A DNA stretch of 47,947 nucleotides from a virus, in the IMG/VR virus record IMGVR_UViG_3300020129_000191, positions 1 to 47,947 of that record; one strand, given 5' to 3'. Below, piece after piece: positions 5,692 through 21,371 of this stretch. The notes beneath the pieces were generated by a model that saw only the letters and a list, made by a program, of their open reading frames with translations, was not told the origin of the DNA and did no database searches. Position 1 is the stretch's first letter; every line of letters starts with the position of its first letter. Both the position numbers and the translations under genes were made by a program.

Positions 5692-5720
5692 TTGACATAG
5701 TGCGCCAGTCCTGCTATAGC
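5692..5720 (+). promoter_or_regulatory. Repeated phage promoter, copy 1
   Basis: TTGACA (5692-5697), a 17-base spacer beginning taGTGCGCCA, then TATAGC (5715-5720). The leader then has TGCACACA (5726-5733) close to the expected start of transcription and AGGAGG before the ATG at 5751. It shares TTGACAtaGTGCGCCA with five other sites in the window. Confidence 0.85.
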
Positions 5721-5750
5721 CAGGATGCACACATTTAGGAGGACCCCACC

Positions 5751-6143
5751 ATGTGGGTAATGTTGAATGACGCCTTCCTGTCGATCGTCGCGCATCCCTC
5801 GCGACCGAAGCTGCTGCTGGTGCGCGCCCGCCAGCGGGAGGATATCGAGGCGGTGTTCCCTGGCGCGAACATCCGCGCAACGCCCGACCGGGACTACCAG
5901 TTCCGCGCGCTGGTCAAGCGCCGCACCGTCGAGGCCGCGATGGCGGCGGAGGTGCGCCGCATCGACTACACCAACTTCAAGAACAGCGTCGTCGATCAGC
6001 GTCGCCATGACGCCTACCTAGACGTCTGGACCCGCATGGACCGTTGGGGCCGGAAGACCGACTGGCGACCGCTCGCCCGCCGCTTCGATGACTACGACGT
6101 CCGCAGTCGCGACGATGATGCCGTCACGGGAGACCTGTCATGA
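5751..6143 (+). CDS. Conserved hypothetical phage/proteobacterial protein
   Basis: 130 residues, first gene behind promoter copy 1, with a strong AGGAGG ribosome site. The N-terminus MWVMLNDAFLSIVAH and the middle VRARQREDIEAVFPG match a pattern I recall from uncharacterised proteins spread across proteobacterial genomes and phages, ending in a Y.NFK..V and DAYLDVW region. No catalytic motif is evident. It is ATGA-coupled to the next gene. Function unknown; position suggests early or middle expression. Confidence 0.85.
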   Translation: MWVMLNDAFLSIVAHPSRPKLLLVRARQREDIEAVFPGANIRATPDRDYQFRALVKRRTVEAAMAAEVRRIDYTNFKNSVVDQRRHDAYLDVWTRMDRWGRKTDWRPLARRFDDYDVRSRDDDAVTGDLS

Positions 6144-6331
6144 GCCTGACCACCGATCTCCGCCTGATCGCCTCCGCCGTCGAGGTGCAGCACGATATGC
6201 TGGAACGCCTCGACTTCTGCACCCGCGCCTATCTGAAGGCGAACCGTGGGCACGACGCGGCGGACAAACGCGCCAAGCTGCAACAGCTTGAGGCCGTGCT
6301 GAACATGGTCACCATGGTGCTGGCACGATGA
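6140..6331 (+). CDS. Small helical protein, unknown
   Basis: 63 residues, start-stop coupled at both ends. It is helical throughout (LIASAVEVQHDMLERLDF; KLQQLEAVLNMVTMVLAR) with a basic middle. No family recognised. The two flanking overlaps make translation likely. Confidence 0.75.
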   Translation: MSLTTDLRLIASAVEVQHDMLERLDFCTRAYLKANRGHDAADKRAKLQQLEAVLNMVTMVLAR

Positions 6332-7422
6332 CCGACAAGCGCACCCCCACCCTGGCCGATCGCTTCATCGCCTCGCGCGGCCAGAACGCTAAGTCGTATC
6401 TACAACAACCCTACGTCGATGACCTGATTCGCAAGACCCGCTCGGCGCATAAATTCGTGCTCGACGAAGACGCCGCCACGCAGGTCGCGCATGTCGTCCG
6501 CGACATTCCCGATCTACTGGTGCGCCAGCATGATTTCGCCCGCCCGCCGTTCGATCTGACGTGGATCGAATTTCCCCACTGGAAGTTCTGGCGCGAGGTG
6601 GGCAACGACCCGGCGGGTCAGGATGGCACCGCCGATCATACACTCGGCTATCTGATCGACGGCAACGTCGCGACGGTGATCGCCGGCGGCACCGTCGATC
6701 ATCCGCATCTGGAACCGATGCCCGGCGTGTTCCAGTATTTTCTGAACAGCGAGTGGCCGCACGGTGCCTACGAGGAATTCCTGAAGGCAGGCTCCATCGT
6801 CAGCGAAACTCTCGACGCCTATCTGTGGGGCACCACCTCCACCCGCCTGTCCCAAGACGATCTGACCAAGCTGCGCGCGCGCTACTGCGCCGGCTTGGCG
6901 CCTATCCTGTATACCGAGAAATCCGAGAAATACCGCCGGCTGCTCAATTACGCCTTCAGCGGCAGTTCCGGCGAACTGCGCAACATCGTCGCGCTGCTGC
7001 TGATGCTCAATCGCCCGACCGTCACGCGCTATTCCAACTCTCCGGCGGGACGCGGCTGGTATCGTGGCAAGGTGACGCCGTTCCTGGCGCACACCTCGGT
7101 GACGATCGATTTCAATGCGGTCGAGACGATGCGGGTGATGGGCACGCCGGCGGGCGACGCCGTGCCACGACGCCGCCACGAGGTGCGCGGGCATTACTGC
7201 CAGAACCGCACCGCGCGCAGCTATGCCCGCATGGGCGGCTGCATGCACGACTGGCAGCCCTGCGGCGATGACTGGACCCCGATCGACGCGGCGGTCGCTG
7301 ATGCCGACCGGTGGGTCTGCCGGGCCTGCGAAGGCAAGCGCTGGTGGCGTGCCGAGCACGAGCGCGGCGACGCCTCGATCGGCTTCCGTAACCACACCGA
7401 CTATCGGGTGGTCGCCTCATGA
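6328..7422 (+). CDS. Hypothetical phage protein with C-terminal Cys/His cluster
   Basis: 364 residues, the largest protein of the block. Residues 1-250 are a mixed alpha/beta region of no recognised family, with a conserved-looking segment LTWIEFPHWKFWREV. The C-terminal 110 residues contain RHEVRGHYC, CMHDW and VCRACEGKRWW, a set of Cys and His that could bind zinc. It is overlapped by ATGA junctions on both sides. A role in DNA or RNA binding is conceivable from the Cys/His pattern but not shown. Confidence 0.82.
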   Translation: MTDKRTPTLADRFIASRGQNAKSYLQQPYVDDLIRKTRSAHKFVLDEDAATQVAHVVRDIPDLLVRQHDFARPPFDLTWIEFPHWKFWREVGNDPAGQDGTADHTLGYLIDGNVATVIAGGTVDHPHLEPMPGVFQYFLNSEWPHGAYEEFLKAGSIVSETLDAYLWGTTSTRLSQDDLTKLRARYCAGLAPILYTEKSEKYRRLLNYAFSGSSGELRNIVALLLMLNRPTVTRYSNSPAGRGWYRGKVTPFLAHTSVTIDFNAVETMRVMGTPAGDAVPRRRHEVRGHYCQNRTARSYARMGGCMHDWQPCGDDWTPIDAAVADADRWVCRACEGKRWWRAEHERGDASIGFRNHTDYRVVAS

Positions 7423-7622
7423 GTATCCAGAAGCGGATGCGCGAGATCAGGGCGATGGGCTGGACAGTCAAGGTCGCTCGCGGTGGGCATCTGGTATGCC
7501 GCCACCCCGACGGCGCGGGACCGGTCTACCTCAGCGCCACGCCCTCGACCCGCTACTACGAGCAGATGGTCGCCCGCATGCTGCGCCGGGCGATCCGGCG
7601 CGCCGAACAACAACGTCGTTGA
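7419..7622 (+). CDS. HicA/YcfA-like small protein (possible mRNA-interferase fold), no HicB partner
   Basis: 67 residues with the layout of HicA: an N-terminal helix (MREIRAMGW), a strand, then the G-x-H loop (KVARGGHLVCRHPDGAG) that carries the catalytic His in HicA toxins, and a basic C-terminal helix. No HicB antitoxin gene follows; the next gene has its own promoter. It may therefore be a domesticated RNA-binding protein rather than a toxin. The promoter for the next operon is embedded in its stop codon. Confidence 0.65.
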   Translation: MSIQKRMREIRAMGWTVKVARGGHLVCRHPDGAGPVYLSATPSTRYYEQMVARMLRRAIRRAEQQRR

Positions 7623-7647
7623 CATAGTGCGCCATTGTGTGGCAGGC
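7619..7647 (+). promoter_or_regulatory. Repeated phage promoter, copy 2
   Basis: TTGACAtaGTGCGCCA starts at 7619 and contains the TGA stop of the upstream gene. After 17 bases the -10 position reads GCAGGC, a weak match, which hints that an activator or the conserved spacer is needed. TGCACACA and AGGAG follow before the ATG at 7677. Confidence 0.75.
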
Positions 7648-7676
7648 TGAAGCGGCTGCACACATAGGAGACTGAC

Positions 7677-7961
7677 ATGGGAAGCCTGAACAACCCGCGC
7701 CCGGCGCCGGCCCTCGACCTCGACCGGCGCGACCTGCTGAACCTCGCGATGGTCATGAACGAGGCCGCACGGGCGGCCTATCTCGACGAGCGGCTGAACG
7801 TCGCGGTGACCCATCACCGGCTTGCCGGCCGCCTTTGGGCGTCCGCTGGCTACGACGAGTCAGCGACCTTCCACCGCGTCGCGGCGGATGAAATCGAACA
7901 GGAGATCGCCAAGCTCGCCAGAACCGTCGATGTCGTCGCGAAGCGACAGAGCGTGGCATGA
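7677..7961 (+). CDS. Small helical protein, unknown
   Basis: 94 residues, first gene behind promoter copy 2, with AGGAG upstream. Helical throughout (LNLAMVMNEAARAAYLDERL; FHRVAADEIEQEIAKLART) with a disordered proline-rich N-terminus. ATGA-coupled to the next gene. No family recognised. Confidence 0.75.
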   Translation: MGSLNNPRPAPALDLDRRDLLNLAMVMNEAARAAYLDERLNVAVTHHRLAGRLWASAGYDESATFHRVAADEIEQEIAKLARTVDVVAKRQSVA

Positions 7962-8170
7962 GCCACGCGCTCGCGCATCTGAACCCCGACGCGATGGTGG
8001 TGGAAGACCTGCCGATCCTGGCGCGCCATCTGCGCCGCCTCGCGCATTACTGCGATGCCCGTGCTCGCGAAATGAACCATCGCGCGGCCGGAGAAATCCG
8101 TGACGCGCAGCGCGCCGAGACGGATTGTCGAATGCTCTACGAAAAGCTCCCAGCGGAATGGAAATGGTGA
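7958..8170 (+). CDS. Small helical protein, unknown
   Basis: 70 residues with DLPILARHLRRLAHYCDARAR and a second helix rich in Ala/Glu/Arg; probably a helical hairpin. Joined by ATGA to the gene before and TGATG to the gene after. Confidence 0.72.
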   Translation: MSHALAHLNPDAMVVEDLPILARHLRRLAHYCDARAREMNHRAAGEIRDAQRAETDCRMLYEKLPAEWKW

Positions 8171-8403
8171 TGCCCAGATTTAGCAAGCTCGACTTGGATG
8201 AGAACGGCCGGCCGGTGGAAACCGACGTGCGGGAAATTCCCCAGAGCGCGATAAAGCTCTGCCCGCATTTCATCCTGATGGCGGAGCACTACCGCGCCGA
8301 CGGGACCTGTCGGTGCAACGATGAATCCCACACCGAGATGCGTGAGTGGGGTTACGATTGGCGCGGCGGGTTATGGCAATCTCCGCCTGACGACGATCAG
8401 TGA
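8170..8403 (+). CDS. Small acidic protein with Cys/His pairs, unknown
   Basis: 77 residues starting at MPRFSKLDLDENGRPVE. Short motifs LCPHFILMAEHY and GTCRCNDESH place Cys and His so that a small metal site is possible; the C-terminus is acidic and Trp-rich (WGYDWRGGLWQSPPDD). Start chosen at 8170 because the ATG shares a base with the upstream TGA; in-frame ATGs at 8158 and 8164 lie inside the upstream gene. Confidence 0.7.
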   Translation: MPRFSKLDLDENGRPVETDVREIPQSAIKLCPHFILMAEHYRADGTCRCNDESHTEMREWGYDWRGGLWQSPPDDDQ

Positions 8404-8409
8404 GACGGC

Positions 8410-8859
8410 ATGACCCCCGACCGCTATCGCGAGTGCGTGGCCGCGCTTGGATACTCCTTGCGCGGCCTCGCCGGCGTGCTGACCTGCTCTGACCGGCTGA
8501 CCAGGGAGTGGGCGACCGGCGCCTCGCCAGTGCCCACCAGCATCGCGGTGTGGCTGGAAGCCTGCGCCGCGCTGCGCCGCTCGCCGAGCCGGCCCGAGCC
8601 GCCGCGTGACGATCGCGGGCGGCGCCGCAAGGCGGCAGCGCCACGCCTGCCGCCGCCGCCGAGGAACTGGCGCAGCAAGCCGGTGATCTGGATCACCCAT
8701 CGCGGCTACCAGATGTCACTGTCGCTCGCGTGCCGGGAAGCCGACATCTCCCGCCCGCTGGTCTACCATCGCGCCAAGCTCTGGAACGGCGACTTTCAGG
8801 CCGCCTTTGACGATCTCGTCGCGGAAAAGCGCCGCCGCCGTAAGCTGGAATCCGCTTGA
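8410..8859 (+). CDS. Two-helix-turn-helix DNA-binding protein, candidate regulator
   Basis: 149 residues. The N-terminal region (CVAALGYSLRGLAGVLTC, then DRLTREWATG) reads as a lambda-repressor-type helix-turn-helix; after a basic Pro/Arg linker (residues about 55-90) the C-terminus holds a second one (LACREADISRPLVYHRAKLW) like those in phage packaging or transposase-type recognition domains. It is the last gene before promoter copy 3, which overlaps its stop codon. A candidate for the factor acting on the repeated promoters, by inference only. Confidence 0.8.
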   Translation: MTPDRYRECVAALGYSLRGLAGVLTCSDRLTREWATGASPVPTSIAVWLEACAALRRSPSRPEPPRDDRGRRRKAAAPRLPPPPRNWRSKPVIWITHRGYQMSLSLACREADISRPLVYHRAKLWNGDFQAAFDDLVAEKRRRRKLESA

Positions 8860-8884
8860 CATAGTGCGCCACTTTATGGCATTT
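8856..8884 (+). promoter_or_regulatory. Repeated phage promoter, copy 3
   Basis: TTGACAtaGTGCGCCA at 8856-8871, again embedded in the stop codon of the upstream gene (TGA at 8857-8859). The -10 position (8879-8884) reads GCATTT. GCACACAC and a GGAGTCT element precede the ATG at 8916. Confidence 0.75.
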
Positions 8885-8915
8885 CGGGAAGGCACACACT
8901 CCTTGGAGTCTTCCC

Positions 8916-9113
8916 ATGACGAAGAAACACTACACCAGCGTCGCCAAAGCCTTCGCGGCCAGCGTCGCGCAATCCTCTGACCACTTCGACCGCGTCGCGC
9001 ATTTCACCGCGCTGCGCGAGATCGCCGATCGGCTCTGCGCCGTGTTCGCGCTGGACAATCCGCGCTTCGACCGCGAGCGCTTCCTGACCGCCTGCGGTCT
9101 GGCGGCGGAGTGA
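8916..9113 (+). CDS. Small helical protein, unknown
   Basis: 65 residues, first gene behind promoter copy 3 with GGAG upstream. A basic N-terminus MTKKHYTSVAKAFAAS is followed by helices (FTALREIADRLCAVFALDNP; FDRERFLTACGL). The C-terminal half resembles short phage/plasmid proteins ending in a ...FDRERFL..CG pattern. Function unknown. Confidence 0.78.
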   Translation: MTKKHYTSVAKAFAASVAQSSDHFDRVAHFTALREIADRLCAVFALDNPRFDRERFLTACGLAAE

Positions 9114-9118
9114 TCCCG

Positions 9119-9283
9119 ATGACCTTCCTGCAATTCTGGGGCGCGCTGAATGTCGCGCTCGCAGTGCGAGACGAGCCAGAGGCGTTGTTCGCCGAGGCTC
9201 GCGCTTGGTTTGGCTGGCGTCCCGTGGTCGCGGTCGATGCCCGGCTGATCAATCACGTCATCAACGACCGGAGGCCGGCATGA
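9119..9283 (+). CDS. Small protein, unknown (54 residues)
   Basis: Starts at the ATG at 9119, five bases after the preceding stop, and ends in an ATGA overlap with the next gene. Sequence begins MTFLQFWGALNVALAVRDEP and contains LFAEARAWFGW. Possibly an amphipathic or membrane-peripheral peptide. Supported by coupling on the 3' side; no family recognised. Confidence 0.65.
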   Translation: MTFLQFWGALNVALAVRDEPEALFAEARAWFGWRPVVAVDARLINHVINDRRPA

Positions 9284-9627
9284 CCGAACGCCCCGAAATG
9301 GAACTCTGGTTATCCGACGCGCGTGGGATTTACATCCCGCGCAACTTCGCTGCCAGCTTCGCCAATCGCGCCGCCACCGTTTCCGGCGTGACCGAGGAAG
9401 ATTGGGCCATCCTCGACGCCGGCCCGGACCACGAATTCTATTGGGACGCGTGGTCGGATGTCTGCGACAACGCGACAATCACCATGGAGGGTGTCGAATA
9501 CAGCATCCATCAGGATGGCGATTGCTGGCTGGTTCCCGACGGCATGGAATGGAGCGACCGCGAGGAAACTTTCGTCTGGCCGGAAGAAGCCGAGGCCGAG
9601 GATGGGGAGAACGACGATGCCGCATGA
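9280..9627 (+). CDS. Acidic conserved phage/plasmid protein, unknown
   Basis: 115 residues beginning MTERPEMELWLSDARGIYIP. The N-terminal SDARGIYIPRNFA and the later EFYWDAWSDVCDNATI and DGDCWLVPDGMEW give a pattern I associate with small proteins on plasmids and phages of proteobacteria. The C-terminus is very acidic (EEAEAEDGENDDAA), suggesting DNA mimicry or protein binding. Start taken at the ATGA overlap with the gene before. Confidence 0.78.
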   Translation: MTERPEMELWLSDARGIYIPRNFAASFANRAATVSGVTEEDWAILDAGPDHEFYWDAWSDVCDNATITMEGVEYSIHQDGDCWLVPDGMEWSDREETFVWPEEAEAEDGENDDAA

Positions 9628-10201
9628 TTGGCGCAAACAACTTGCCAGCGACGTGGATTTTGCCCGCTCGATCATTTTGTCGGTCGGCGAGGTGCAGCCG
9701 ATGTTCGTGCTGCACAGCCCCAAGCAATCCCATATGGTCGCCGCCCAATGGTCCAGCCGCGAGGAAAAGCGACTGACCCGCGCCCTGGTCCGGCTATTGG
9801 GCGTTGCCGAGGGTGTCGAGGCGATCAGCTTCATGTCTGAATGCTGGTCGGCTGAATATCGGCAACTGCCCGGCGAGTCTCAGGCCGCCACGCGGCGTCG
9901 CGCCGAGGCCGGCCCACCGGTCTCCGAACGCGAGGATCGCATCGAAATCCTCGTGGTGGTGAATGTCTACCGCGAGAACGACAAGCGCCACTGCCGGGGC
10001 GTGGTGATGGAGATCATCCGCGACGCGGACGGCAAGGTGAGCGATCTGGTCGAGCGCACCGATCCGGGCGGCGAGGAAGGTTTCGAAGGCCCCTTGGCCA
10101 ATCTCTTGGTCGATCCCGAGCCGACACCGGAACAACGCCAGCAGGCTCAGGCGATGTTGAGCAGCATGAACGTCCTGCACAAGCGGAGCACACTCCATTG
10201 A
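9617..10201 (+). CDS. Hypothetical protein, unknown
   Basis: 194 residues starting MPHDWRKQLASDVDFARSII, 11 bases inside the previous gene, with GGGGAGA upstream. The N-terminal half is alpha/beta (SVGEVQPMFVLHSPKQSHMV, RALVRLLGVAEGVEAISFMS); a later strand-rich segment reads DRIEILVVVNVYRENDKRHC. No recognised family. It ends in a TTGA junction with the next gene. Confidence 0.78.
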   Translation: MPHDWRKQLASDVDFARSIILSVGEVQPMFVLHSPKQSHMVAAQWSSREEKRLTRALVRLLGVAEGVEAISFMSECWSAEYRQLPGESQAATRRRAEAGPPVSEREDRIEILVVVNVYRENDKRHCRGVVMEIIRDADGKVSDLVERTDPGGEEGFEGPLANLLVDPEPTPEQRQQAQAMLSSMNVLHKRSTLH

Positions 10202-10476
10202 ACGACGGTATCGCGCGGCTCGCCGCGATCTATGCCCGCCTGCTGTGCGACGAGCGCAGCCTGCGGCAAGCCCGACCGACGGTCTATCGCCTGCCGACCG
10301 TCCCCGCCCTCTCGCCCGCCGCCCAGGCACTGCGGGCAGCCGCGATGCGGCTGTATGATCTCGCGCCGGAGGATGCCCTGCCGCACCTCGACGCGATCAA
10401 GCGCGTCATGGAGATCGACACCGGGGTCACCGACTCCAACGTGGTGCTGATGCGCGTCGCGGTGCTGCTGCCATGA
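10198..10476 (+). CDS. Small helical protein with TTG start, unknown
   Basis: 92 residues. The start codon is a TTG whose last two bases form the TGA of the preceding gene, so expression is probably coupled and weak. The sequence is helical with a Pro-rich break (LPTVPALSPAAQALRAAAMR). ATGA-coupled to the next gene. Confidence 0.7.
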   Translation: MNDGIARLAAIYARLLCDERSLRQARPTVYRLPTVPALSPAAQALRAAAMRLYDLAPEDALPHLDAIKRVMEIDTGVTDSNVVLMRVAVLLP

Positions 10477-10796
10477 GCGGCTTTCCCGAATTCGCCAACT
10501 CCAATCAGAACATCGAAGACTACATCGAACAACTCGACGACATCGTCGATCATCTGATCGACGCCTGCGACGATGATGTCGTCGCCAAGATGGCAGACCG
10601 GATCACCGACATCTTCGACGGCCAGACCTTCGCCGATATCGACATGGCGATGGCGTTCGCCATGACGGAAGCGCTCGATCGCCAAGCGGAATCGCTCACG
10701 GGCGGGCAGCCGAAGGATATGTTTGCCGTGATGCTGCGGATAATCTGGCGGATTCAGCAGCGACGCGCGGAGGATGGCGACAATGATCCAGCGTAA
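10473..10796 (+). CDS. Acidic helical protein, unknown
   Basis: 107 residues, strongly acidic in the first two thirds (NIEDYIEQLDDIVDHLIDAC, DDDVVAKMADRITDIFDG). A compact helical, negatively charged protein of this kind could mimic DNA, but nothing specific shows this. Overlaps the start of the following membrane protein. Confidence 0.75.
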   Translation: MSGFPEFANSNQNIEDYIEQLDDIVDHLIDACDDDVVAKMADRITDIFDGQTFADIDMAMAFAMTEALDRQAESLTGGQPKDMFAVMLRIIWRIQQRRAEDGDNDPA

Positions 10797-11232
10797 GCTG
10801 AAGCCGCCGCCGCGCGGCGCGTTCGATTGGATGCTCGGCAACATCCTCGACGAAGTGCCGCATGCGCCGGTGCCGCCACCGCCGCCACGCGACCCCGAGA
10901 TACGGCGCGTCGTGGTGAACATCGAGATCACGCCGCAGCGTCGCAAACCGAAGCCGAAGCCGCGCGCCGATCGCTGGCTGTTCGCCACGATGATCTGGCT
11001 GATCGTGCTGGCGATGTTCGCCTTCGCGCATGCCCAGCCGGTCGAGTGGCAGAACTACCGCCAGGGCTTCATGACCCACATGCACGGCAATGACGCCGAC
11101 GGCCGGGCGTGGACCGGGCAGAGCTATCGCCGGGGCTTCATGACCTACACCGACGTGCAGGGTCCTGGCGGGCAGTCGCAGCACTGCCGGTCCTGGCAGC
11201 AGGACTGGCGCAGCTTCACGCAATGCGACTGA
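10783..11232 (+). CDS. Single-span membrane protein with C-terminal YRxGFMT repeats
   Basis: 149 residues. A cytoplasmic Pro/Lys-rich N-terminus (PPPPPRDP, RRKPKPKPRA) leads to one transmembrane helix at about 65-84 (WLFATMIWLIVLAMFAFAHA). The outer part has a twice-repeated motif, YRQGFMTHMHGND and YRRGFMTYTDVQG, and ends with two Cys, a pattern also seen in short bacterial periplasmic proteins. Start set at 10783, ten bases after GGAGG; an ATG at 10774 is also possible. May alter the host envelope (for example superinfection exclusion), by inference only. Confidence 0.75.
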   Translation: MIQRKLKPPPRGAFDWMLGNILDEVPHAPVPPPPPRDPEIRRVVVNIEITPQRRKPKPKPRADRWLFATMIWLIVLAMFAFAHAQPVEWQNYRQGFMTHMHGNDADGRAWTGQSYRRGFMTYTDVQGPGGQSQHCRSWQQDWRSFTQCD

Positions 11233-12162: not shown

Positions 12163-12191
12163 TTGACATGGTGCGCCAATCCGCCGATAAC
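12163..12191 (+). promoter_or_regulatory. Repeated phage promoter, copy 4
   Basis: TTGACAtgGTGCGCCA (12163-12178), 17-base spacer, GATAAC (12186-12191). A longer leader than the other copies ends in GCACATTCTCAGGAGTCT before the ATG at 12240. Confidence 0.82.
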
Positions 12192-12239
12192 CCGGAGGCG
12201 GCGTCATCCGACACCGCTGCACATTCTCAGGAGTCTACC

Positions 12240-13241
12240 ATGCCTTTTGACACCACCACGCTCGACGGCGATTTCGTCCCGATGAATCATCGGGAAGTTC
12301 AGCCGATCGCCGCCACCGTCCGCCGCGTCTTCGACGAAGACGGACGCGAGATCGCAGGCTTCCACCACATCATGAACGGCCAGACCGGCGCCACCATCCG
12401 CGTCGCGCCGGATACCTACACGATGGTGCAGAACGAAGTCGCCGTGGATACCATCGAGAGCGCACTGAAGCAGTCGCGGCTCGACCTGACCGACGCGCGC
12501 TTCGGCGTCGATTACTCCCATGATGGCGCGCGGATGTTCGCGCAGTGGATTCTGCCGGCGCACACCGCGCTGGTGAAGCCGGGCGTCGAGGCGACGCTGC
12601 GGCTGGTGCTGCTGAATTCCTACGACGGCACCTCGGCGCTGGTCGCCCGCACCGGCGCCTACAACTGGGTCTGCGCGAACACCTCGGTCTCCGGCAAGGA
12701 ATTCGCCAGCTTCCGCTTCACCCACTCGGGCGAGATCGACCTGTCGCCGGCGGTCGCCAAGCTGACGCGCGCGGCCGAGGAACACGTCGAGCAGGTCCGC
12801 CGTTGGGAGCAGTGGCCGCATATCCCGGTGACCGACCAGAGCATGCGCGCGGTGATGGCGTCGATCCCCAAGGCCAGCGAGTCGCAGATCGACGCGCTGA
12901 TCCACGCCTATCTGAAGGCGCGAGACGAGGATGAGTTCCAGGGCGGCGCCAATCTCTGGTGCCTGTTCAACGTGCTGACCGCTTGGGCGTCGGAGAAGGA
13001 CGCCTCGGCGCGCAGCGCCAACCGCGCTTACCGCAACTGGGGCCGCCAGAAGGACGTCGGCAGCGTGGTCGAAAGCAAGCTCTGGCAGGAACTGGCCGCG
13101 CAGCCGGTGCGGCGTCTGGTGCACGTCGCCGCGCCGCCGCTGGTGATGCCGGCCGCGCCGGTGGTCGAGGCTGAGATCGCCGCGCCGGCTCAGGCCGAGA
13201 TCGCCGCGCCGCTGCCAGCGGGCGTCACCATGATCGGCTAA
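12240..13241 (+). CDS. DUF932 family protein
   Basis: 333 residues. The sequence follows the DUF932 layout found on phages and plasmids: IAGFHHIMNGQTGATIRVAP, then MVQNEVAVDTIESALKQ, a central VLLNSYDGTSALVARTGAY with WVCANTSVSG, and a C-terminal SANRAYRNWGRQ. Residues after about 295 are an Ala/Pro/Glu-rich tail (VEAEIAAPAQAEIAAP). The molecular function of DUF932 proteins is not settled. Start chosen at 12240, directly after the AGGAGTCT leader; in-frame ATGs upstream precede the promoter. Monocistronic, followed by strong hairpins. Confidence 0.92.
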   Translation: MPFDTTTLDGDFVPMNHREVQPIAATVRRVFDEDGREIAGFHHIMNGQTGATIRVAPDTYTMVQNEVAVDTIESALKQSRLDLTDARFGVDYSHDGARMFAQWILPAHTALVKPGVEATLRLVLLNSYDGTSALVARTGAYNWVCANTSVSGKEFASFRFTHSGEIDLSPAVAKLTRAAEEHVEQVRRWEQWPHIPVTDQSMRAVMASIPKASESQIDALIHAYLKARDEDEFQGGANLWCLFNVLTAWASEKDASARSANRAYRNWGRQKDVGSVVESKLWQELAAQPVRRLVHVAAPPLVMPAAPVVEAEIAAPAQAEIAAPLPAGVTMIG

Positions 13242-13445: not shown

Positions 13446-13706
13446 TCAGTGAACGGACCCTGCTTTCGGCGGCACTTCGATCGCCCGGTCGTTCTCGGCG
13501 TCGATCGCCATGCAGCGACCGACGGCAGCATCGAGCTTCGCTTTGGCGCGCTGGTGGATCAGCATGCCGTGGTCACGGTCGAACATGATGTCGGCGTCGT
13601 CGATGCCGATCGCCCTGGCGGTAAGATACTGCTGATGCAGCACCGCGATCTCGTGGTTGATAAAACCCTCGCCCCTGAGCTTCCTTCGCAGTTCCTTGTA
13701 GTTCAT
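13446..13706 (-). CDS. Small basic protein, unknown
   Basis: 86 residues starting MNYKELRRKLRGEGFINHEI. The start at 13706 overlaps the stop of the upstream gene (TGATG-type junction); the open frame extends further upstream but only as an antisense-like shadow. Helical, no recognised family. Last gene of a minus-strand unit. Confidence 0.72.
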   Translation of the reverse strand: MNYKELRRKLRGEGFINHEIAVLHQQYLTARAIGIDDADIMFDRDHGMLIHQRAKAKLDAAVGRCMAIDAENDRAIEVPPKAGSVH

Positions 13707-14248
13707 GGCGGCAGCCTTTTTCCCCTGGCGATCTCGTCGCGTATCTCGCTGGCGAAATGCTGCGCCAGAACGTCGAGGATCGCCAGCAGCTTGCCCTTCT
13801 CGACGGGCTGCGATGCCGGCTGGCCCGGCAGCGATCGGGTCCACGCGCGCAGCGTCATGTTGCCCAACACGATGGCTTCGATCATGCGCAACTGCTGGCG
13901 CGAGAACAGCGCGATGACCCGCCGCACCGCGCGCGCTGCCCGCACCTGAGAAACCGCCGCCGCGCCGCCGCCATGTCGCGGCTGCGGTTGTTGCTCGACG
14001 TAGATCAGCGGTCGCGCGGCGGAATATCCCATGGTCGCCAGATCGACCTGTTCGCGCAGCTTGTCGGCTGCCGCGATGTGCGCGTGGGTCACCCCGGAGG
14101 TGGCGAACGCCAGCATCCGGCGCAGCGGGTCATAGCTGCGCCAGCCGTGGATTTCGCGCGGCGTGCGCCGGGCGCCCGGCGTGATGTCGTCAGGGTCTCG
14201 CCATGTCGCACGCATCGCATGCGGTGGTGGCGCCTCGGTGCCCGCCAC
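13703..14248 (-). CDS. Hypothetical phage protein with C-terminal helical domain
   Basis: 181 residues. GTG start at 14248; an ATG at 14215 (MRATWRDPDDITPG) is an alternative. The N-terminal third is a flexible region with HGWRSYDPLRRMLAF; the C-terminal part (VIALFSRQQLRMIEAIVLGN, then KGKLLAILDVLAQHFASEI) looks like a helix-turn-helix-like helical bundle distantly reminiscent of DUF6456-type domains, which I cannot confirm. A DNA-binding role is plausible. Confidence 0.68.
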   Translation of the reverse strand: MAGTEAPPPHAMRATWRDPDDITPGARRTPREIHGWRSYDPLRRMLAFATSGVTHAHIAAADKLREQVDLATMGYSAARPLIYVEQQPQPRHGGGAAAVSQVRAARAVRRVIALFSRQQLRMIEAIVLGNMTLRAWTRSLPGQPASQPVEKGKLLAILDVLAQHFASEIRDEIARGKRLPP

Positions 14249-14509: not shown

Positions 14510-15874
14510 TCAAGCCGCTGCGCCGTAGCCGAAGCGCTCGCGCTGCTCGCGCATGAAGTAGAACGCCCAGCCCTTCTTGTAGCCCTTCACCTTGGCGAAG
14601 GCTCGCGCCTGCGCCTCGGTGCGCGGACGCTGTTTGAACTGCGTCATTGACACCTTGCCCCAGCGCGCTTGCGCCTGCTTGGCGGACTCCGCCTCGATCA
14701 GATCACCGGCGACCTGCTCGACCACGCGCTTGCGGCCGAGGTTGATGCCGTCCACGTTGATCTCCGCCGGCGCACGCTTGACCTTCTCGACGCCATCGAG
14801 CGTCCAGACGCGGTCTTCTTCGGGCAGGCCGTGGCGCAGCGTGTTGCCCGCATGATCGAGCACGATCAGCGGCGCCCCGTCGGCCTTCGGCCGCATGCCC
14901 CTGCCAATCTGTTGCAGCGCCAGGATCAGCGAGCCGGTCGGCCGCAGCAGAATCACCGCACCGACCGACGGCACGTCCAGCCCCTCGCTGATCAGGTCGC
15001 ACGACGTCAGCACGTCGAGACCGTTATGCGCATAACAGTTTCCCAACGCCCCGATCAGCCGGTCGCGCTCGTCCTTGGACGTGCCGCCATGCACGCAGGC
15101 GGCGCGCAGCCCGGCGTCGCGGAACGCTTGGGCGACCTGCTCGGCGTGCTCGACGGTGACGCAGAAGGCGATGGCCGTTTTGCCAGCCGCGTGCCGGCGG
15201 TAGTGCGCAATCGCATCGCCGGTGACGATCTGCGCGCGCTTGGCCATTTCATCGCCGGCTGCCCAATCGCCGCCGACCTTGCGCAACCCGGTGGTGTCGA
15301 TTTGCTGCGGCGGGATGAAGACCTTGCTGCGTGCGAGATGTCCCGCATCGACAAGTTCCTGCATCGTGGGGCCGCAAATGATGGCGTCGAACAGGCCGCC
15401 GCATTGCGTGCCGAGACCAGCGCCATCGGTGCGCGACGGCGTCGCGGTAACGCCGAGCAGCTTCGCCTTGGTCTGCGACTTCAGCAGTGTGAACCACGTC
15501 TCCGCCACCGCGTGATGCGCTTCATCAATGACGATGAAATCGAACTGCGGAAGCTCGCGGTTCACCGCGCTCTGGATCGACAGAACCTGCACCGTCGCAT
15601 CGTGGTCGCGGTCGAGGCCGGCCGCGATGATGCCATGCGGCACGCCGCACCAGTCGAGCTTCGCCGAGGCTTGGCGGATAAGCTCGCGGCGATGCACGAA
15701 GACGCCGACCTTGCGGCCCTTGGCCGCCGCCGAGGCGACGATGTGTGAGAAGACGACGGTCTTACCGCCGCCGGTGGCAAGCTGATAGAGCGGCGCCTTG
15801 GCGCCCGCGACGTAGGCGGCGCGCAGCCGGTCGATGTCGGTGATCTGGTAGTCGCGCAGGATCAGGTCGTTCAT
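14510..15874 (-). CDS. SF2 DEAH-box helicase
   Basis: 454 residues with both RecA-like domains: Walker A ATGGGKT (33-39), DEAH (117-120), TATP (143-146), and in domain 2 SEGLDVP (296-302) and QQIGRGMR (321-328). This is the UvsW/RecG-like, type-III-res-like class of phage helicases that remodel forks or R-loops using ATP. The C-terminus is a basic helical tail. Its own promoter (copy 5) lies just upstream, with a leader ending CCGGAGCCACCC before the ATG at 15874. Likely part of the replication/recombination set with the primase-helicase. Confidence 0.94.
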   Translation of the reverse strand: MNDLILRDYQITDIDRLRAAYVAGAKAPLYQLATGGGKTVVFSHIVASAAAKGRKVGVFVHRRELIRQASAKLDWCGVPHGIIAAGLDRDHDATVQVLSIQSAVNRELPQFDFIVIDEAHHAVAETWFTLLKSQTKAKLLGVTATPSRTDGAGLGTQCGGLFDAIICGPTMQELVDAGHLARSKVFIPPQQIDTTGLRKVGGDWAAGDEMAKRAQIVTGDAIAHYRRHAAGKTAIAFCVTVEHAEQVAQAFRDAGLRAACVHGGTSKDERDRLIGALGNCYAHNGLDVLTSCDLISEGLDVPSVGAVILLRPTGSLILALQQIGRGMRPKADGAPLIVLDHAGNTLRHGLPEEDRVWTLDGVEKVKRAPAEINVDGINLGRKRVVEQVAGDLIEAESAKQAQARWGKVSMTQFKQRPRTEAQARAFAKVKGYKKGWAFYFMREQRERFGYGAAA

Positions 15875-15880: not shown

Positions 15881-15904
15881 CTCCGGACAGAATGTGTGCA
15901 GTCC
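15881..15904 (-). promoter_or_regulatory. Leader hairpin of the helicase mRNA
   Basis: CCGGAC and GTCCGG flank TGCACACATTCT in the leader. The 3' arm overlaps the ribosome site (CCGGAG), so folding would hide it. Confidence 0.45.
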
Positions 15905-15906: not shown

Positions 15907-15935
15907 CTCATAGCCTAAATGGCGCACTATGTCAA
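15907..15935 (-). promoter_or_regulatory. Repeated phage promoter, copy 5
   Basis: On the minus strand TTGACAtaGTGCGCCA starts at 15935; after a 17-base spacer TATGAG occupies 15912-15907. TGCACACA follows, as in the other copies. Confidence 0.85.
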
Positions 15936-16167: not shown

Positions 16168-16184
16168 TGCAACCTCCGGTTGGC

Positions 16185-16309
16185 AGGGGGATCAGGGGGA
16201 TCAGGGGGATGTTTACACGCTAATACCCAACATGCAAACGATGCGATTGTTTAACGAGCATTTCCGATTCAAGGAGGTAAACATCCCCCTTATCCCCCTT
16301 ATCCCCCTT
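16185..16309. repeat. G-rich inverted repeat with 9-base iterations, candidate replication origin
   Basis: Left arm 16185-16216 has three GGGGGAT units at 9-base spacing then GTTTAC; right arm 16277-16309 is GTAAAC followed by three ATCCCCC units. The 60-base interior is A+T-rich for this genome. It lies directly downstream of the primase-helicase gene, where phage origins are often found. It could equally be a large RNA hairpin or a mobile repeat. Confidence 0.7.
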
Positions 16310-16329
16310 CAATCTCAAAAACCTAGGAA

Positions 16330-18930
16330 TCACACAACAACCTCGACATACCAACGCGCTGTGCCATCTGTTACACCTTTATCGCGAACAAACCGTTTGC
16401 CGTTCACGACGCGCCCGGCATACTTTCGCAGCCAATATCCAATCTTCGGCGTGTCGATACTGGCGCCGCCACGGACTCCAAACTGCTCGCGGAGCACCTG
16501 ATAGAAGCCATCCGACGCCGATTTCGCGACGACGTCGGCGACGGTGGTCGGTATGTCGCGGAATTCGTGGTGCCAGCCTTCAACCATAGCGCGCAGTCGC
16601 ATGGTGGCTGGATCATCCGATGCGGCGACCTCCATCGTGTCGCAGGGATCGGCACAGCCGAGCCAGATCAGCGGCTCGCGGACGAAATGCGACCACTTTC
16701 CGAAGCCGGCGAGCGGGAACGGGGCAACCTGCTCGCCGCTCATGTGATAGGCGCGGGCGATGGTCAGCACATCGGCGATGTAGCGCCCTCGATCGGCCAG
16801 CGCGGCCTGAATCGGGTCGGCATTGAAGTGCCGGCGCTCAGGGCGCGCCACGCCGGCATCCATATCGCACCGCATCGAGCGGCGACCCTGTTCATCCACG
16901 ATGGCCAGATTATTGCCCGTCATATAAATCACTACGTAGTTCTCTACCTCGACGCTCTCCAATTTTCCGAAGATGCGAATGGAAAGATGCGTCTCGCTGG
17001 TAGCGCGGTTCAGCAGAGGTATGTCCACGTCGCTGGAAACATTGTCGATGGTAAATCCCGGCACGCCGGACAGCAGCATCGTGTTGATTTCCTTCTCGGT
17101 CTCCTTTTCGTCGCGCCCCGCGCCCATGGCCGGACACGGTCGGCCGATCGCCAATGCGCTGGCCAAGTTCACGAGATGCGATTTGCCGGTGCTGTGCGCT
17201 TTCGCCGAGACCGCCAGCAACGGCGAATTGGGCATGGCGCAGCGCAAGACCTGCGTCATGAGCATGGTCAGCGCCACCGAGCGTGACGCGGCGCTGACGA
17301 AAGGATAGCTGTCCAGCAGTCGGCTCAGCCGGTCGAGGGAGTCCTTCGCCTCGGCCTTGCTCGGCGTTGTGGGAATTTCCGGCACCGTCAGATCGGTGGG
17401 GAACATCAGATAATATCGCGAGATCGGATCGTATCCCGCCTCGGTCAGCAGGCTGCCATCGGAGCGCAGCGTCGGGCAGGTCAGCACGCCGCGCACCACA
17501 GGGAACGGCCAGCCGGCGCGATTGAACAGAACGATCTGGACCAGCTTTTCGGGCGGGTCGCATTTGACGAAGCCCGGTGGGTGCAGCCGACGGTCCCACT
17601 TCATGAAGCGCGCCGAGCGGTCCATCAGCAGCGCGAGCGCTGGCGCGGTGAGGCTGGCCAGCCCTGCGCTATGCGTCACGTTGCCATCCGCGTCGAGGTA
17701 TTCCCGCTCGTGGGGCTGCACCAGCGAGCCGCGCTCGTAGATCGGCAGGCCGGAGTTCAGCAGCGCTGCCTCGGTCTCCCTCACCATGCGGCTGAGTTCG
17801 CCGGCCTCGCAGATGATGACCGGCAGGCCATCGGGCGCCGGGCGGCCGGCCTGACGCGGTCCCTCGGGTGGTGGAGGCTCCGGCCCGATCGGGCCGATCC
17901 CCGCCTCGGTCTCAGTCTCGCCGCCGCCCTCGTCGATCTCCGCCTCGGCCTCGGCGAAGGCGATATCGCCATCAGGCTCCGGCTCGCCGACGTCGCCATC
18001 GACGTCCTCGCCATTGCCAGCACCAGCGCCACCAGACGGCGCCACACCGGGGCTGTAGGTGCCGGGCGGCACATACAGCGGGGCTTCCAGCGCCAGCCAC
18101 TCTAGCTCGCTACGGTCGCCGCCATCGGCCAGCCAGTCGGTCACGTCGCCCTTCTCGGGCAGCCCTGGCAGGGCGAGCACCTTGACCGATGACGCGACGC
18201 CGAACAGCGCCCGCGCGACGATGGCGGCATGCGCGCGCCCTGGCGGGTCGTTGTCGGGCAGGATCACCACCGGCTTGCCGGCGAAGTAGCCGTTATAGGC
18301 GGCGCGCCAGCCGCCGCCGGTGCCGCCGATCGCGGTGGTCGCGATCAGCCCGAGTGCCGCGAGATTGTCGGCGTCCTTCTCACCCTCGCAAATCCACGTC
18401 GTCTCGCTGCCGGACGCCAATAGCTCGGGCAGCCGGTAGAGCGGGCGGGCGTCGCGCGGGATGTCCTTGAGCGACCATTTCCAGCCGCTGCGATTGGTCG
18501 GATCAGGCCGGCGTTGCAGGAAGCGCGGGCTGCCGGTCAGCGTGCGGACCACCTCCAGCACGAGGTGCCCGGCGGCATCGAGGTAGCCGTAGCGCTTGCC
18601 GATGTTCTGCCAGGGCGGCACCTTGCCGGCATGCCCGTTGGCAGCCTTGCCCGGCGCGGTGTGACCGTTCGCCTTGGCAGCGCCGCCACCCAGCGTCCTG
18701 GCCTCGGGCAGCCCGCCGAGCGCCAGCTTGTGCATCGCCAGATAGCCGCCGCCGGTGCCCGCCTCGTGGTCGCGCCAGACCAGTTCCTTGAGCAAAACGC
18801 TCTTGGATTCCTTGGCGCCGAAGCGCGCCTCATTGCGGTCATGCGACCAGCCGGTCGGTTGACCCCACAGCATGATGGCGAGTTCAAGGATCGACGGCAG
18901 CGACGGATCGGGCACGAACCCGGCGGCCAT
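16330..18930 (-). CDS. TOPRIM primase-helicase, replication protein
   Basis: 866 residues. Residues 1-290 form a TOPRIM-containing primase-like part: CEGEKDADNL (181-190, catalytic Glu) and ILPDNDPPGR (223-232, the DxD). An acidic Pro/Glu linker (about 300-365) leads to an ATPase part with Walker A-like SAKAHSTGKSHL (575-586) and FTIDNV near 626, as in phage DUF927/DUF3987-like helicases. Such proteins prime and unwind DNA at the phage fork. No N-terminal zinc finger is evident. Start at 18930 has AGGAGGG nine bases upstream. Confidence 0.9.
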   Translation of the reverse strand: MAAGFVPDPSLPSILELAIMLWGQPTGWSHDRNEARFGAKESKSVLLKELVWRDHEAGTGGGYLAMHKLALGGLPEARTLGGGAAKANGHTAPGKAANGHAGKVPPWQNIGKRYGYLDAAGHLVLEVVRTLTGSPRFLQRRPDPTNRSGWKWSLKDIPRDARPLYRLPELLASGSETTWICEGEKDADNLAALGLIATTAIGGTGGGWRAAYNGYFAGKPVVILPDNDPPGRAHAAIVARALFGVASSVKVLALPGLPEKGDVTDWLADGGDRSELEWLALEAPLYVPPGTYSPGVAPSGGAGAGNGEDVDGDVGEPEPDGDIAFAEAEAEIDEGGGETETEAGIGPIGPEPPPPEGPRQAGRPAPDGLPVIICEAGELSRMVRETEAALLNSGLPIYERGSLVQPHEREYLDADGNVTHSAGLASLTAPALALLMDRSARFMKWDRRLHPPGFVKCDPPEKLVQIVLFNRAGWPFPVVRGVLTCPTLRSDGSLLTEAGYDPISRYYLMFPTDLTVPEIPTTPSKAEAKDSLDRLSRLLDSYPFVSAASRSVALTMLMTQVLRCAMPNSPLLAVSAKAHSTGKSHLVNLASALAIGRPCPAMGAGRDEKETEKEINTMLLSGVPGFTIDNVSSDVDIPLLNRATSETHLSIRIFGKLESVEVENYVVIYMTGNNLAIVDEQGRRSMRCDMDAGVARPERRHFNADPIQAALADRGRYIADVLTIARAYHMSGEQVAPFPLAGFGKWSHFVREPLIWLGCADPCDTMEVAASDDPATMRLRAMVEGWHHEFRDIPTTVADVVAKSASDGFYQVLREQFGVRGGASIDTPKIGYWLRKYAGRVVNGKRFVRDKGVTDGTARWYVEVVV

Positions 18931-19274
18931 CTAGCTGCCCTCCTGACGCCCTCCGGGTCTCGGTCGTTCATCGGCCGAGGCAATGGAATCAAACAAACAG
19001 ATAGTTGATGACGATAAAAACGACATTACGGCCACGCCTCTCTTGCAGTCAGACCGATGGCGTGGCAGAACGGGCATGCATAAGTTGCCTTTGTTCTGCT
19101 TTCCAGCGGGCTAAAGGTTCAGACGCCTCCGACTCCCAAGGTCGGGGGCGTCTCTCGTTTAAGCGGTCAGTCTAGCGTGCCGGACCCGCCGATGACCAGC
19201 GTGTTGCACCCACGTTACGCATCGGCATTTTCCACTGATTCACCCACCTCCGCAGGGCGCTAAGCTGTCGGCCC
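18931..19274. other. 344-base intergenic region without a gene
   Basis: It holds the upstream region of the primase-helicase, relatively A+T-rich around 18990-19030, an 8-bp inverted repeat GCCACGCC/GGCGTGGC with a 20-base gap starting near 19033, and the hairpin at 19122-19152. No coding frame with a ribosome site is evident. It may contain a promoter for the minus-strand primase gene and/or a small RNA. Confidence 0.5.
19122..19160 (+). terminator. Hairpin followed by T-rich tract
   Basis: GACGCCTCCGAC (19122-19133) pairs with GTCGGGGGCGTC (19141-19152) with one G-T pair, then TCTCGTTT. On the plus strand it looks like an intrinsic terminator although no plus-strand gene precedes it, which suggests a small RNA. 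Confidence 0.55.
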
Positions 19275-19985
19275 TCAGTGCAGCGACGCCTTCGGCGGCG
19301 CGTCGGTCTTGATCGTGCCGTCTGCTTTGGCCTTGTCGGCGATCTTCAGCAGCAGGTCGATATTCACTTCGCGCAGCCGGTTGATGATGGCATAGGCCCG
19401 GTCACCGAATTCCTCGACCAGCCAGAGCCAATAGTTGTTGGTCATCTCGGCCTGATGATCGATCAGCGGCATCACGCGCGGCGCCGGCGCTGCGGCCGCC
19501 TGTTCCTGCACCGTCATCGCTTGGAACCGCTTGCGCTCGGCCTTCTCCACCACCTTGCGGGCGGCCGATTGCAGCGCCTGCATCTGTAGCTTGGCACTGT
19601 CATGTGCCAGGACATACTTCAGCGCATGGTGATTGCTGGCGAGACCGAGGCGGATCGCCTCCTGCTTGCAGCGCTCGCTGAGTCTGGCGAATAGCTTGGC
19701 GCGACCGATGGTCTGGCGACTTGTTCCAAGCTCACGCGCGGCGGCACGATCGCCACCCTTCTGACCGCGTCCGGCCCGCCCCGTATAAAGTGGCCCATTT
19801 TGGGCCACTTTTTCCGTCGTTCCGGCCTTCCAACGTTCAGCCTTGAGGCGTTTGCATTCCGTGCAATCGCCGGTCGAGACGTAGCGCTTGCCGTCGTGGC
19901 CATTCACGCATGTGTCGGTCGGATAGTAGAACTTCTCGCCCGCCGCCCTGGCATCGTCGCGGGTGGCGAGCTTCCGGTCTGGCAT
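19275..19985 (-). CDS. ParB-like DNA-binding half with N-terminal zinc-finger module
   Basis: 236 residues. Residues about 18-48 have a Cys/His module (YYPTDTCVNGHDGKRYVSTG, then DCTECKR) of the type in phage HNH-associated zinc ribbons. Residues about 75-135 (KGGDRAAARELGTSRQTIGR, then RLGLASNHHALKYVL) match the helix-turn-helix and following helices of ParB/KorB-like proteins. The C-terminal part is helical. The ParB catalytic N-domain is missing here but is encoded by the gene just upstream, so the two probably act together. Confidence 0.78.
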   Translation of the reverse strand: MPDRKLATRDDARAAGEKFYYPTDTCVNGHDGKRYVSTGDCTECKRLKAERWKAGTTEKVAQNGPLYTGRAGRGQKGGDRAAARELGTSRQTIGRAKLFARLSERCKQEAIRLGLASNHHALKYVLAHDSAKLQMQALQSAARKVVEKAERKRFQAMTVQEQAAAAPAPRVMPLIDHQAEMTNNYWLWLVEEFGDRAYAIINRLREVNIDLLLKIADKAKADGTIKTDAPPKASLH

Positions 19986-20015
19986 CGGCGGGGCCTCCCT
20001 TGCCGCTTGTGTGCG

Positions 20016-20366
20016 TTAGGCGATCAATACAGCGCGCGCAGCCAAGTGATCTATACGCTCCTGCTTACCGAGATCGGCGCGGGCAAGGTTCTCGTCGATC
20101 TCCCAAATCCTGGCGTCGTGTTCATTGTCGAACACCACTGCGTCGATGTGCGTCATCTTGTTCTTGAGCGCGGCTCTGACGCGATGTTCGCCGGTCACTA
20201 GGTGCGGCGTGCCCTTAACCATGCGCACGGTGATCGGTGTGCGCAGACCGATCCTTTGGATGCTCTCGGCGATATCATCGATGACGGACGACTGAAGCGC
20301 CCTGCGGCGCTCCGTTGTCATGACGATGTCGGCGATCTTGATGCGCTGGACCTTTGGCGCCTCCAT
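20016..20366 (-). CDS. ParB/Srx N-terminal domain as a stand-alone protein
   Basis: 116 residues starting MEAPKVQRIKIADIVMTTER. Contains the ParB N-domain elements IADSIQRIG-like (IAESIQRIGLRTPITVRMV), the nucleotide-binding box VTGEHRVRAAL and the ENLARADLGKQERIDHLAAR segment which in full-length ParB proteins leads into the DNA-binding domain. The protein stops there. The downstream gene, 30 bases further, supplies the helix-turn-helix. ParB family members bind CTP or act as nucleases; which applies here is unknown. The start shares an A with the upstream stop (TGATG). Confidence 0.85.
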   Translation of the reverse strand: MEAPKVQRIKIADIVMTTERRRALQSSVIDDIAESIQRIGLRTPITVRMVKGTPHLVTGEHRVRAALKNKMTHIDAVVFDNEHDARIWEIDENLARADLGKQERIDHLAARAVLIA

Positions 20367-21313
20367 CACGCCACCTGCGGCAGCGATATGGTCGAGTCCC
20401 ACTTGAAGCTGCGCGGGCGCCGCCGCTCCATATGCGCATTCCACGCCATCACGATCGATCCAGCGCGTCTGACCGCCCGATCGCGTCCGTTGCTGCCGCG
20501 CTCGCTAGCTAGCTGATTGCGCACCCGCAGCACTGGACTGTGCTCCGCCAGCAACGCGCCCTTTGATAGTTGCTCGACGAAATCATCGAGCTTATCGCGA
20601 TGCGCCGTGTGAGTGGCGATCTGCCATAGCGCCAACGCCGCCGTAGATGGCGGGACCAATGCGCGCAGTCGGTAACCGAACTTCAGGATCGCCGCAAACT
20701 CCGGCTCCGCGAATAGCTCATCGAGCCGATCGGTCTGCTCGACGCGGTCAGGCGATGCAGTGCTCCCAAGCTCGACACGCAGGATCAGCGCAACTAAGGA
20801 CTGCGCAAGCACCACATTGTTGTGGCCGTGCTCGCGCGCGATGTCGGCGACGCTGCGCGGGACGCCTTGGTCGTAGAAGTCCCGTTCATCGGGGTGGCAG
20901 CCGAAGCACACGGTGAACACGATCGTGCAGTCAGATTCAACAACAGCCCCCAATCGATGCTGGCCATCGCGCAGCACGCCGTTGAAGTCAAAGCAGATCG
21001 GATGCGGCTGCCTGTCCCGGTAACGCTTCTCCTGCATGGCGCGAGCCATGATCTTGACCCTGGTCTTGCGGATGGGGCGATTTTCAGAATTGCGAACAAG
21101 CGCAGCCGCCGCCCACTCGGGTCCGACGGCTATTTCCTGAAATACGTGGCCGAAGGTCGTGTGCTGCGCCAACAAAGCGGCAAGCTGATCGGCACCGCCC
21201 AATACTTGCGGCCCGTCAGGCGCCTGCTGTCGCGCCAGCAACTTCGCTGCCTCGCGCGCCGACAGCACCGGTGCCGCCGACCGTCGGGGCTTCGATTCCA
21301 TTGGGTGAGCCAT
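20366..21313 (-). CDS. ParB-fold phage protein (DGQHRL family), unknown role
   Basis: 315 residues. A central segment NRPIRKTRVKIMARAMQEKR, then FDFNGVLRDGQHRLGAVVES, is the ParB-like box of a family common in actinobacterial and proteobacterial phages, normally with unknown function. The C-terminal half is helical. It is the first gene of the cluster behind promoter copy 6, with AAGGAG before the ATG at 21313, and is TGATG-coupled to the stand-alone ParB domain. Possibly a DNA- or nucleotide-dependent partner of the next two proteins. Confidence 0.85.
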   Translation of the reverse strand: MAHPMESKPRRSAAPVLSAREAAKLLARQQAPDGPQVLGGADQLAALLAQHTTFGHVFQEIAVGPEWAAAALVRNSENRPIRKTRVKIMARAMQEKRYRDRQPHPICFDFNGVLRDGQHRLGAVVESDCTIVFTVCFGCHPDERDFYDQGVPRSVADIAREHGHNNVVLAQSLVALILRVELGSTASPDRVEQTDRLDELFAEPEFAAILKFGYRLRALVPPSTAALALWQIATHTAHRDKLDDFVEQLSKGALLAEHSPVLRVRNQLASERGSNGRDRAVRRAGSIVMAWNAHMERRRPRSFKWDSTISLPQVA

Positions 21314-21342
21314 GTCTACGATCTCCTTTTTACATGGGGTTG

Positions 21343-21371
21343 GTTTGCTTCGACGTGGCGCACCGTGTCAA
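21343..21371 (-). promoter_or_regulatory. Repeated phage promoter, copy 6 (degenerate)
   Basis: On the minus strand TTGACAcgGTGCGCCA starts at 21371. The -10 position reads GCAAAC, poor, so the shared upstream element may be the main determinant. This copy lacks the TGCACACA leader. Confidence 0.65.

Follow-up and report, generated by a model that had tools for sequence, protein, structure and literature searches.

The window analysed here (all 47,947 bases of IMG/VR virus record IMGVR_UViG_3300020129_000191) is a fragment of a virus genome. It encodes a terminase; its late genes, contractile-tail-like in character, lie on the minus strand, and DUF932, helicase and primase-like proteins are encoded in a region devoted to early functions or replication. 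Six of its predicted promoters share a 16-base word of the TTGACAtaGTGCGCCA family (four exact copies and two variants, 58-77 nt 5' of start codons) that includes the -35 element and part of the spacer, and which we consider here as a candidate operator. The sites are as follows:

5692-5707 (plus): site 1, operator/-35 word TTGACATAGTGCGCCA; -10 TATAGC at 5715-5720; before the open reading frame (ORF) at 5751; kept in the sister record G001 and before the orthologue in the distant relative L008
7619-7634 (plus): site 2, operator/-35 word; hexamer GCAGGC at 7642-7647; heads the operon 7677-8859, which includes a helix-turn-helix (HTH) gene
8856-8871 (plus): site 3, operator/-35 word; hexamer GCATTT at 8879-8884; overlaps the stop codon of the HTH gene; before ORF 8916
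12163-12178 (plus): site 4, variant TTGACATGGTGCGCCA; GATAAC at 12186-12191; before the DUF932 gene at 12240
15920-15935 (minus): site 5, operator/-35 word; TATGAG at 15907-15912; before the helicase gene 14510-15874 (PHROG 16, E 6e-89)
21356-21371 (minus): site 6, weaker variant TTGACACGGTGCGCCA; GCAAAC at 21343-21348; before ORF 21313

A search of the window with the exact word, allowing up to 3 mismatches, returned 7 matches against 0.30 expected, the best of 100 shuffled controls giving 2. An earlier sequence-only reading had placed one and the same word before six genes: the six sites are indeed there, but only four of them are exact copies (5692, 7619 and 8856 on the plus strand, 15920-15935 on the minus strand), the copy at 12163 carrying one mismatch and that at 21356-21371 two, both confined to positions 7-8 (TA four times, TG and CG once each), so that 14 of the 16 positions are invariant. 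Counted from the first base of the word, the starts at 5751, 7677, 8916, 12240, 15874 and 21313 lie 59, 58, 60, 77, 61 and 58 nt downstream, and all six sites (as well as both sites of L008) are oriented with their gene. The -35 is a perfect TTGACA at all sites, and at 17-nt spacing the sequence-only reading gave all six -10 hexamers correctly; at this spacing 4 of the 8 window-type sites (7619, 8856, 21356 and L008 5592) share no more than two of six bases with the -10 consensus. The seventh match (33337-33352, minus, 2 mismatches, GTGGGCCA) was taken as chance, since it lies inside a predicted coding region (32832-33515, minus) and is devoid of the GCACACA leader described below; apart from it, no copy with up to 3 mismatches was found away from promoters in the window.

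This second shared element, GCACACA (GCACAT at the 12240 site), accompanies five of the six sites, shortly 5' of the Shine-Dalgarno sequence and near the expected transcription start:

5727-5733 (plus): leader GCACACA of site 1
7658-7664 (plus): leader GCACACA of site 2
8892-8898 (plus): leader GCACACA of site 3
12219-12224 (plus): leader variant GCACAT of site 4
15893-15899 (minus): leader GCACACA of site 5

Site 6, which lacks the leader and is missing from G001, is the weakest of the six; beside it, a tRNA T-arm-like stretch (GGATTCGAACCGGT, 21372-21405, minus) spans the end of an MT-A70 gene; according to ARAGORN, the window has no tRNA. At 12-55 nt from the starts that follow it, GCACAC(A) is over-represented in the genes of the window (7 of 22 occurrences vs 0.72 expected: 5727, 7658, 8892, 12219, 15899 on the minus strand, 20014 on the minus strand, and 25323) and of two relatives (L087/G004, 9 of 30, 1.05 expected; L086/G003, 5 of 21, 0.84 expected), with no such enrichment in G005, G007 and G022. 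As it is also found directly after stop codons inside operons, the element may act on translation or messenger RNA and not on transcription initiation. An inverted repeat joining word and leader (GTGCGC...GCACAC) was rejected because the spacing varies between 19 and 40 nt. A further GCACACA (24750, no word copy) is situated in the divergent region 24680-24777, between a ribbon-helix-helix gene (24471-24680, PF01402) and a Gp157/ERF recombination operon, which may constitute a separate switch.

The word is retained beyond the window. The sister record G001 comprises 71,871 bases and is 98-99% identical to the window across most of what the two share; a short sequence recurs, with one mismatch, at its two ends, and the record may be almost complete. 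It retains five of the sites in equivalent positions, site 6 being absent where the gene content differs. L008 (also G002) covers 6 kb of a more distant relative, with a DNA identity of 68 to 77% where the two sequences match. It harbors two exact copies, each followed by GCACACA. One of them stands before the orthologue of ORF 5751: both the 16-mer and GCACACA are preserved there within an otherwise different sequence, in which the -10 has turned from TATAGC into CACGTT. Across the whole of IMG/VR the exact word is present in 8 stretches and, the window apart, is multi-copy only in G001 and L008, the other five holding single copies without leader. These observations agree with the proposal of the sequence-only reading that spacer conservation beyond the needs of sigma-70 points to a dedicated regulator, and the motif search in related phages that it had suggested found the word (five copies in the sister record, two in L008), so that the absence from sister phages which would have refuted that reading does not hold.

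Could a regulator of the host read the word? The window has no close DNA match in the named phage collection; its terminase is nearest to those of Rhizobium phages (56.9% identity), and this affinity, together with a GcrA-like gene at 43076, points to alphaproteobacterial hosts. Nothing beyond this pointer to the host speaks for a host reader, and we regard it as highly improbable: in genome_contigs (257 Gb of bacterial and archaeal sequence) the exact word is no commoner than chance would have it, with 62 single copies against ~120 for uniform base composition, and related phages carry different words before orthologous genes.

The latter became apparent in about twenty contigs with orthologues of ORF 6328 or DUF932, gathered by protein searches. 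Repeated words of their own, at the same place and fused to the -35, were found in G003 (TAGTGGGTCA-N3-TGGCATAAC, five sites), G004 (ATGGCA..GCGCRTATAAACG, three to five sites), G016 (GTTACCCAAAWTGGATACA, four sites before genes, with TTG), in G005, G007, G022 and G023 (whose word, TTGACAT-N4-SGTCARG, also found in G014, is followed by a good -10 at 17-18 nt and is present in one to nine copies per contig, nine of them in G022), and in G012 (a near-palindrome, CGTYACGTRACG, between -35 and -10; three sites, one reversed with respect to the other two and, owing to the near-palindromy, differing in one base pair per arm). In a dyad test based on column shuffles (1000 per family), the dyad TC.TGAC-N7-GTCA.GA of the G005/G007/G014/G022/G023 clade was equalled by 5 of 1000 shuffles (15 sites) and that of G012 by 0 of 1000 (3 sites); the window word has its best centre (TGAC-N7-GCCA, not significant) at the position of the G005/G022 dyad centre. 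A dyad between -35 and -10 is the mark of a dimeric regulator and not of a directional polymerase element, and the presence of an inverted repeat or near-palindrome at this place in relatives suits regulator operators and not a sigma factor or a modified polymerase.

The sequence-only reading had also considered a phage-modified polymerase. That such an enzyme, or a phage-encoded sigma factor, reads a long -35 element would fit the conserved spacer, the perfect -35 and the indifferent -10; we nevertheless deem it very unlikely in view of the symmetric words of the relatives and of the lack of Sigma70_r4 in any of 7 records (with controls working). The DUF6456-like protein at 13703-14248 (minus; E 0.0086, below the cut-off; 37-60% conserved in 13 compared loci, some of them motif-less) does not support it either, as it occurs in motif-less records too and lies in a motif-headed operon (as defined below) in 0 of 7 cases; on the same grounds it was rejected as the reader of the word, and it is possibly a regulator of another kind.

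The regulator that would read the word was sought among the HTH proteins of the window, of which two belong to one kind:

8410-8859 (plus): candidate regulator, 149 amino acids; five-helix HTH (residues about 3-57) and a C-terminal beta-beta-alpha-alpha-alpha domain of unrecognised fold
27417-27815 (plus): second, paralogous HTH protein and alternative reader; its G001 counterpart matches profile A3 (see below) at E 1.5e-8; PHROG 4779, E 7.9e-5

In the AlphaFold2 model of the 8410 protein (pLDDT 88.3), the HTH is matched best by Aca2 in VIA-align (7ezy_A, Z 9.2, rmsd 1.1, 56 residues), with Aca10, Aca1 and HigA2 close behind; the best Foldseek match of the model had E 0.053, none falling under 0.001. 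HigA2, MqsA and controller proteins come close to the score of Aca2, so that similarity of fold is by itself unspecific. For the C-terminal domain (residues 85-149) no structural match could be recognised, and neither Pfam nor structure searches confirmed a resemblance to NUMOD-type DNA-binding domains. ORFs 5751, 6328 and 8410 have no PHROG match, the HTH proteins of the window and of L145 have no match in the named phage collections, and that of L136 has a single weak match there (Bradyrhizobium phage ppBeUSDA76-2, 36% over 61 residues, E 8e-3).

A profile built from nine HTH proteins of the 8410 kind (A3) matched 12 of 24 records searched in full, the motif-bearing lineages included (L008 ends before the region), one of the 12, G010, only weakly; in two Rhizobium phages with related terminases it found no match, a search that had no positive control. 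To relate the HTH gene to the words, we walked upstream from it through co-directional neighbours to a motif-bearing promoter. By this test, the HTH orthologue lies in a motif-headed operon in 9 of 9 lineages (background over all genes, 0.12 to 0.62), and the same placement was found for 0 of 7 DUF6456-like and 0 of 5 primase genes. Moreover, a TTG-anchored search recovered families of at least 3 upstream sites in 6 of 11 records with the HTH gene vs 0 of 10 without it, a count in which G010 (weak HTH match, E 4.1e-6) and G002 (the 6-kb L008, whose HTH region falls outside and which has two sites) are classed as lacking the gene, and from which the families of G012 and G023, missed by the script, were absent and were added by eye. 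Reversed controls gave no family and within-gene controls one (G015). Words of other kinds occur upstream of genes in relatives without the HTH gene, namely CGGGGATTTCGTGTGC before three neighbouring genes in G011 (33255-34326, L158) and CTACAAAGCTGGGGTC-type words before several genes in G019 (41454-46599, L172).

Among the four HTH candidates put forward by the sequence-only reading (8410, 27417, 11233 and 43079), 8410 is the one backed by comparative evidence and 27417 turned out to be its paralogue. The other two fared less well, as 11233 has a weak PHROG match (phrog_323, E 0.0036), and the last (43076-43423, plus) is a GcrA-like protein (PF07750, E 6.8e-7, above the cut-off) that does not track the motif families. 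The latter was rejected as reader: GcrA is found in 6 of 21 records (besides the window in G001, G003, G009, G010 and G011), is missing from most motif-bearing ones and is present in the motif-less G009 and G011.

Taken together, these observations incline us, by a modest degree, towards the hypothesis that the word is a regulator operator fused to the -35, that the regulator is most likely the 8410 protein, and that it acts as a self-limiting repressor of several early promoters. On this hypothesis, host RNA polymerase would use the host-type (sigma-70-like) promoters of the phage early region soon after entry, and the 8410 protein would be made from the operon starting at the 7619 promoter; as it accumulates, it would bind the word, covering the -35 and half of the spacer and excluding RNA polymerase, and would thereby turn down its own operon as well as the other early operons. 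Binding of the word by the 8410 protein, the early timing of the genes and repression upon binding are what we infer, the last from the position of the operator over the promoter.

Several observations weigh against this hypothesis. The neighbours of the HTH gene place equally well in the operon test (g7677 6 of 6, g5751 4 of 4, g9617 5 of 5), and the lineage regular expressions were chosen after the promoters had been viewed; since neighbours score alike and the motifs were chosen by the analyst, the operon result denotes linkage and not proof. The 9 of 9 lineages are not nine independent events either, as G005, G007, G022 and G023 form one clade. An unanchored search for shared 16-mers gave about as many upstream pairs as the within-gene control in most records (44 vs 44 in the window), anchoring on TTG being needed for an informative outcome. 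The dyad of the window word is not significant (526 of 1000 shuffles as good), the words of G003 and G004 have no significant dyad (0.39 and 0.79), and that of G016 is imperfect (193 of 1000). Furthermore, profile A3 showed no Aca similarity when run against the PDB sequences (4 matches up to E 10, the best, at 0.079, unrelated, and 7xi5, an Aca10, at E 0.58). Lastly, co-variation of operator and HTH protein was not shown: the HTH of G016 is 53-55% identical to those of G007 and G022 and yet goes with a different operator, which contradicts a simple identity rule, and as the TGAC-N7-GTCA clade is also a terminase clade (85-90%), shared descent explains the agreement of operator and HTH within it.

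To these points belong the poor -10s of half of the window-type sites, which could mean activation. An activator (the 8410 protein, its paralogue at 27417 or another phage factor) might bind the spacer and recruit polymerase to such promoters, in accordance with the preservation of the 16-mer at places where the -10 is not kept. We find this doubtful, given that the -35 is a perfect TTGACA throughout and that activators of the MotA kind replace the -35; in addition, where the inverted repeat is clearest, the clade concerned combines it with good -10s at an unchanged spacing, and the -35 and spacer are the usual place of a repressor operator. A different kind of repressor, of the lysogeny type with genome-wide sites (as in phage P1 and the cluster A mycobacteriophages), could silence the early genes in a carrier or plasmid state, and in its favour could be cited the multi-locus operators over the -35, the asymmetry of the window word, the predicted second domain of the 8410 protein and the ParB-like proteins at 4466 and 20016. 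We judge it quite improbable, since Phage_integrase (PF00589) was detected in 0 of 9 records and the S24 repressor (PF00717) in 0 of 7, and since the HTH gene sits inside an operon that would need silencing. Although the window is a fragment, its sister G001 (71.9 kb, with near-identical ends) is probably not far from complete. The ParB-like protein at 4466-5698 (minus) combines ParB-N (below the cut-off) with an N6/N4 DNA methylase, and that at 20016-20366 (minus) is a separate ParB-N protein; with the MT-A70 methylase at 21381-22367 (minus) also encoded, the phage probably methylates DNA.

Returning to self-limiting repression by the 8410 protein, an unusual trait is the apparent exchange of the word, in related phages, across many promoters in concert. 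A broader scenario, which we put forward tentatively and hold to be unlikely in its entirety, would have a phage clade (one in which neither integrase nor S24 repressor was detected) controlled by one self-limiting HTH regulator, each lineage having swapped the operator of every early promoter along with the specificity of the protein, so as to arrive at a private code, with the second domain leading to an asymmetric one-chain operator (window, G004) and a dimer on a dyad elsewhere. Both two-domain HTH proteins (window and G004) go with asymmetric words, and the word of the one-domain G003 is likewise not significantly symmetric; that the second domain goes with an asymmetric operator is accordingly speculation. 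If the private-code reading were true, the genes under the word would form a catalogue of early, possibly counter-defence, functions. Should the operator hypothesis itself be true, the word would tag the early regulon in a group of uncultured phages, most of whose early proteins lack known relatives. The promoter alone could then serve to pick candidate takeover or counter-defence genes, as was done for archaeal viruses (PMC11065993). Moreover, one regulator family with several operator types would offer a natural series for testing in vitro how phages change specificity at many promoters at once.

The arrangement shares traits with several known systems. In phage P1, the C1 operators are copies of a single asymmetric word, scattered over many loci and overlapping with -35 elements; P1, however, is temperate and has a larger C1 protein, and no such gene was found here. 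Similarly, the repressor and stoperators of cluster A mycobacteriophages (L5, TipsytheTRex; PMC9283540) involve asymmetric multi-copy sites oriented with transcription, but these phages are temperate and their sites number more than 20, many of them off promoters, whereas the window has six, all before genes; the L5-type repressor has two DNA-binding domains, and the 8410 protein has a predicted second domain without recognised fold. In Aca systems, according to section 18 of PMC9410906, the core promoter always includes one inverted repeat, and the Aca protein silences the operon that encodes it. Like these bacterial acr-aca repressors, the candidate described here is a small phage HTH protein encoded in the operon that it would control, with an operator inside the core promoter, and its model is closest to Aca2, Aca10 and Aca1; unlike them, it goes with no known acr gene, resembles none of the Aca proteins of the PDB in sequence, and would act on several promoters per genome and not on one operon. 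The inverted repeat in the core promoter is seen in the G005/G007/G022/G023 clade and in G012, and is not significant in the window, G003 and G004. Among the papers listed in searches of an open-access library, we recognised none that describes the same arrangement in bacterial phages. The closest published parallel is the archaeal Aca8 system: in SIRV2 and other archaeal viruses, many early genes of one virus have a regulatory sequence in common, which varies from one virus to another and also stands before aca8, the gene of a putative HTH repressor (PMC11065993). There the promoters are of the TATA/BRE type, the protein is a winged HTH (wHTH) and the early genes are tested or predicted to be anti-defence, whereas here the promoters are sigma-70-like, the HTH is XRE-like and the early genes are only candidates for such functions. 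With these differences in mind, the phages of this group look like a bacterial counterpart of archaeal-virus early regulation, with several promoters under one word.

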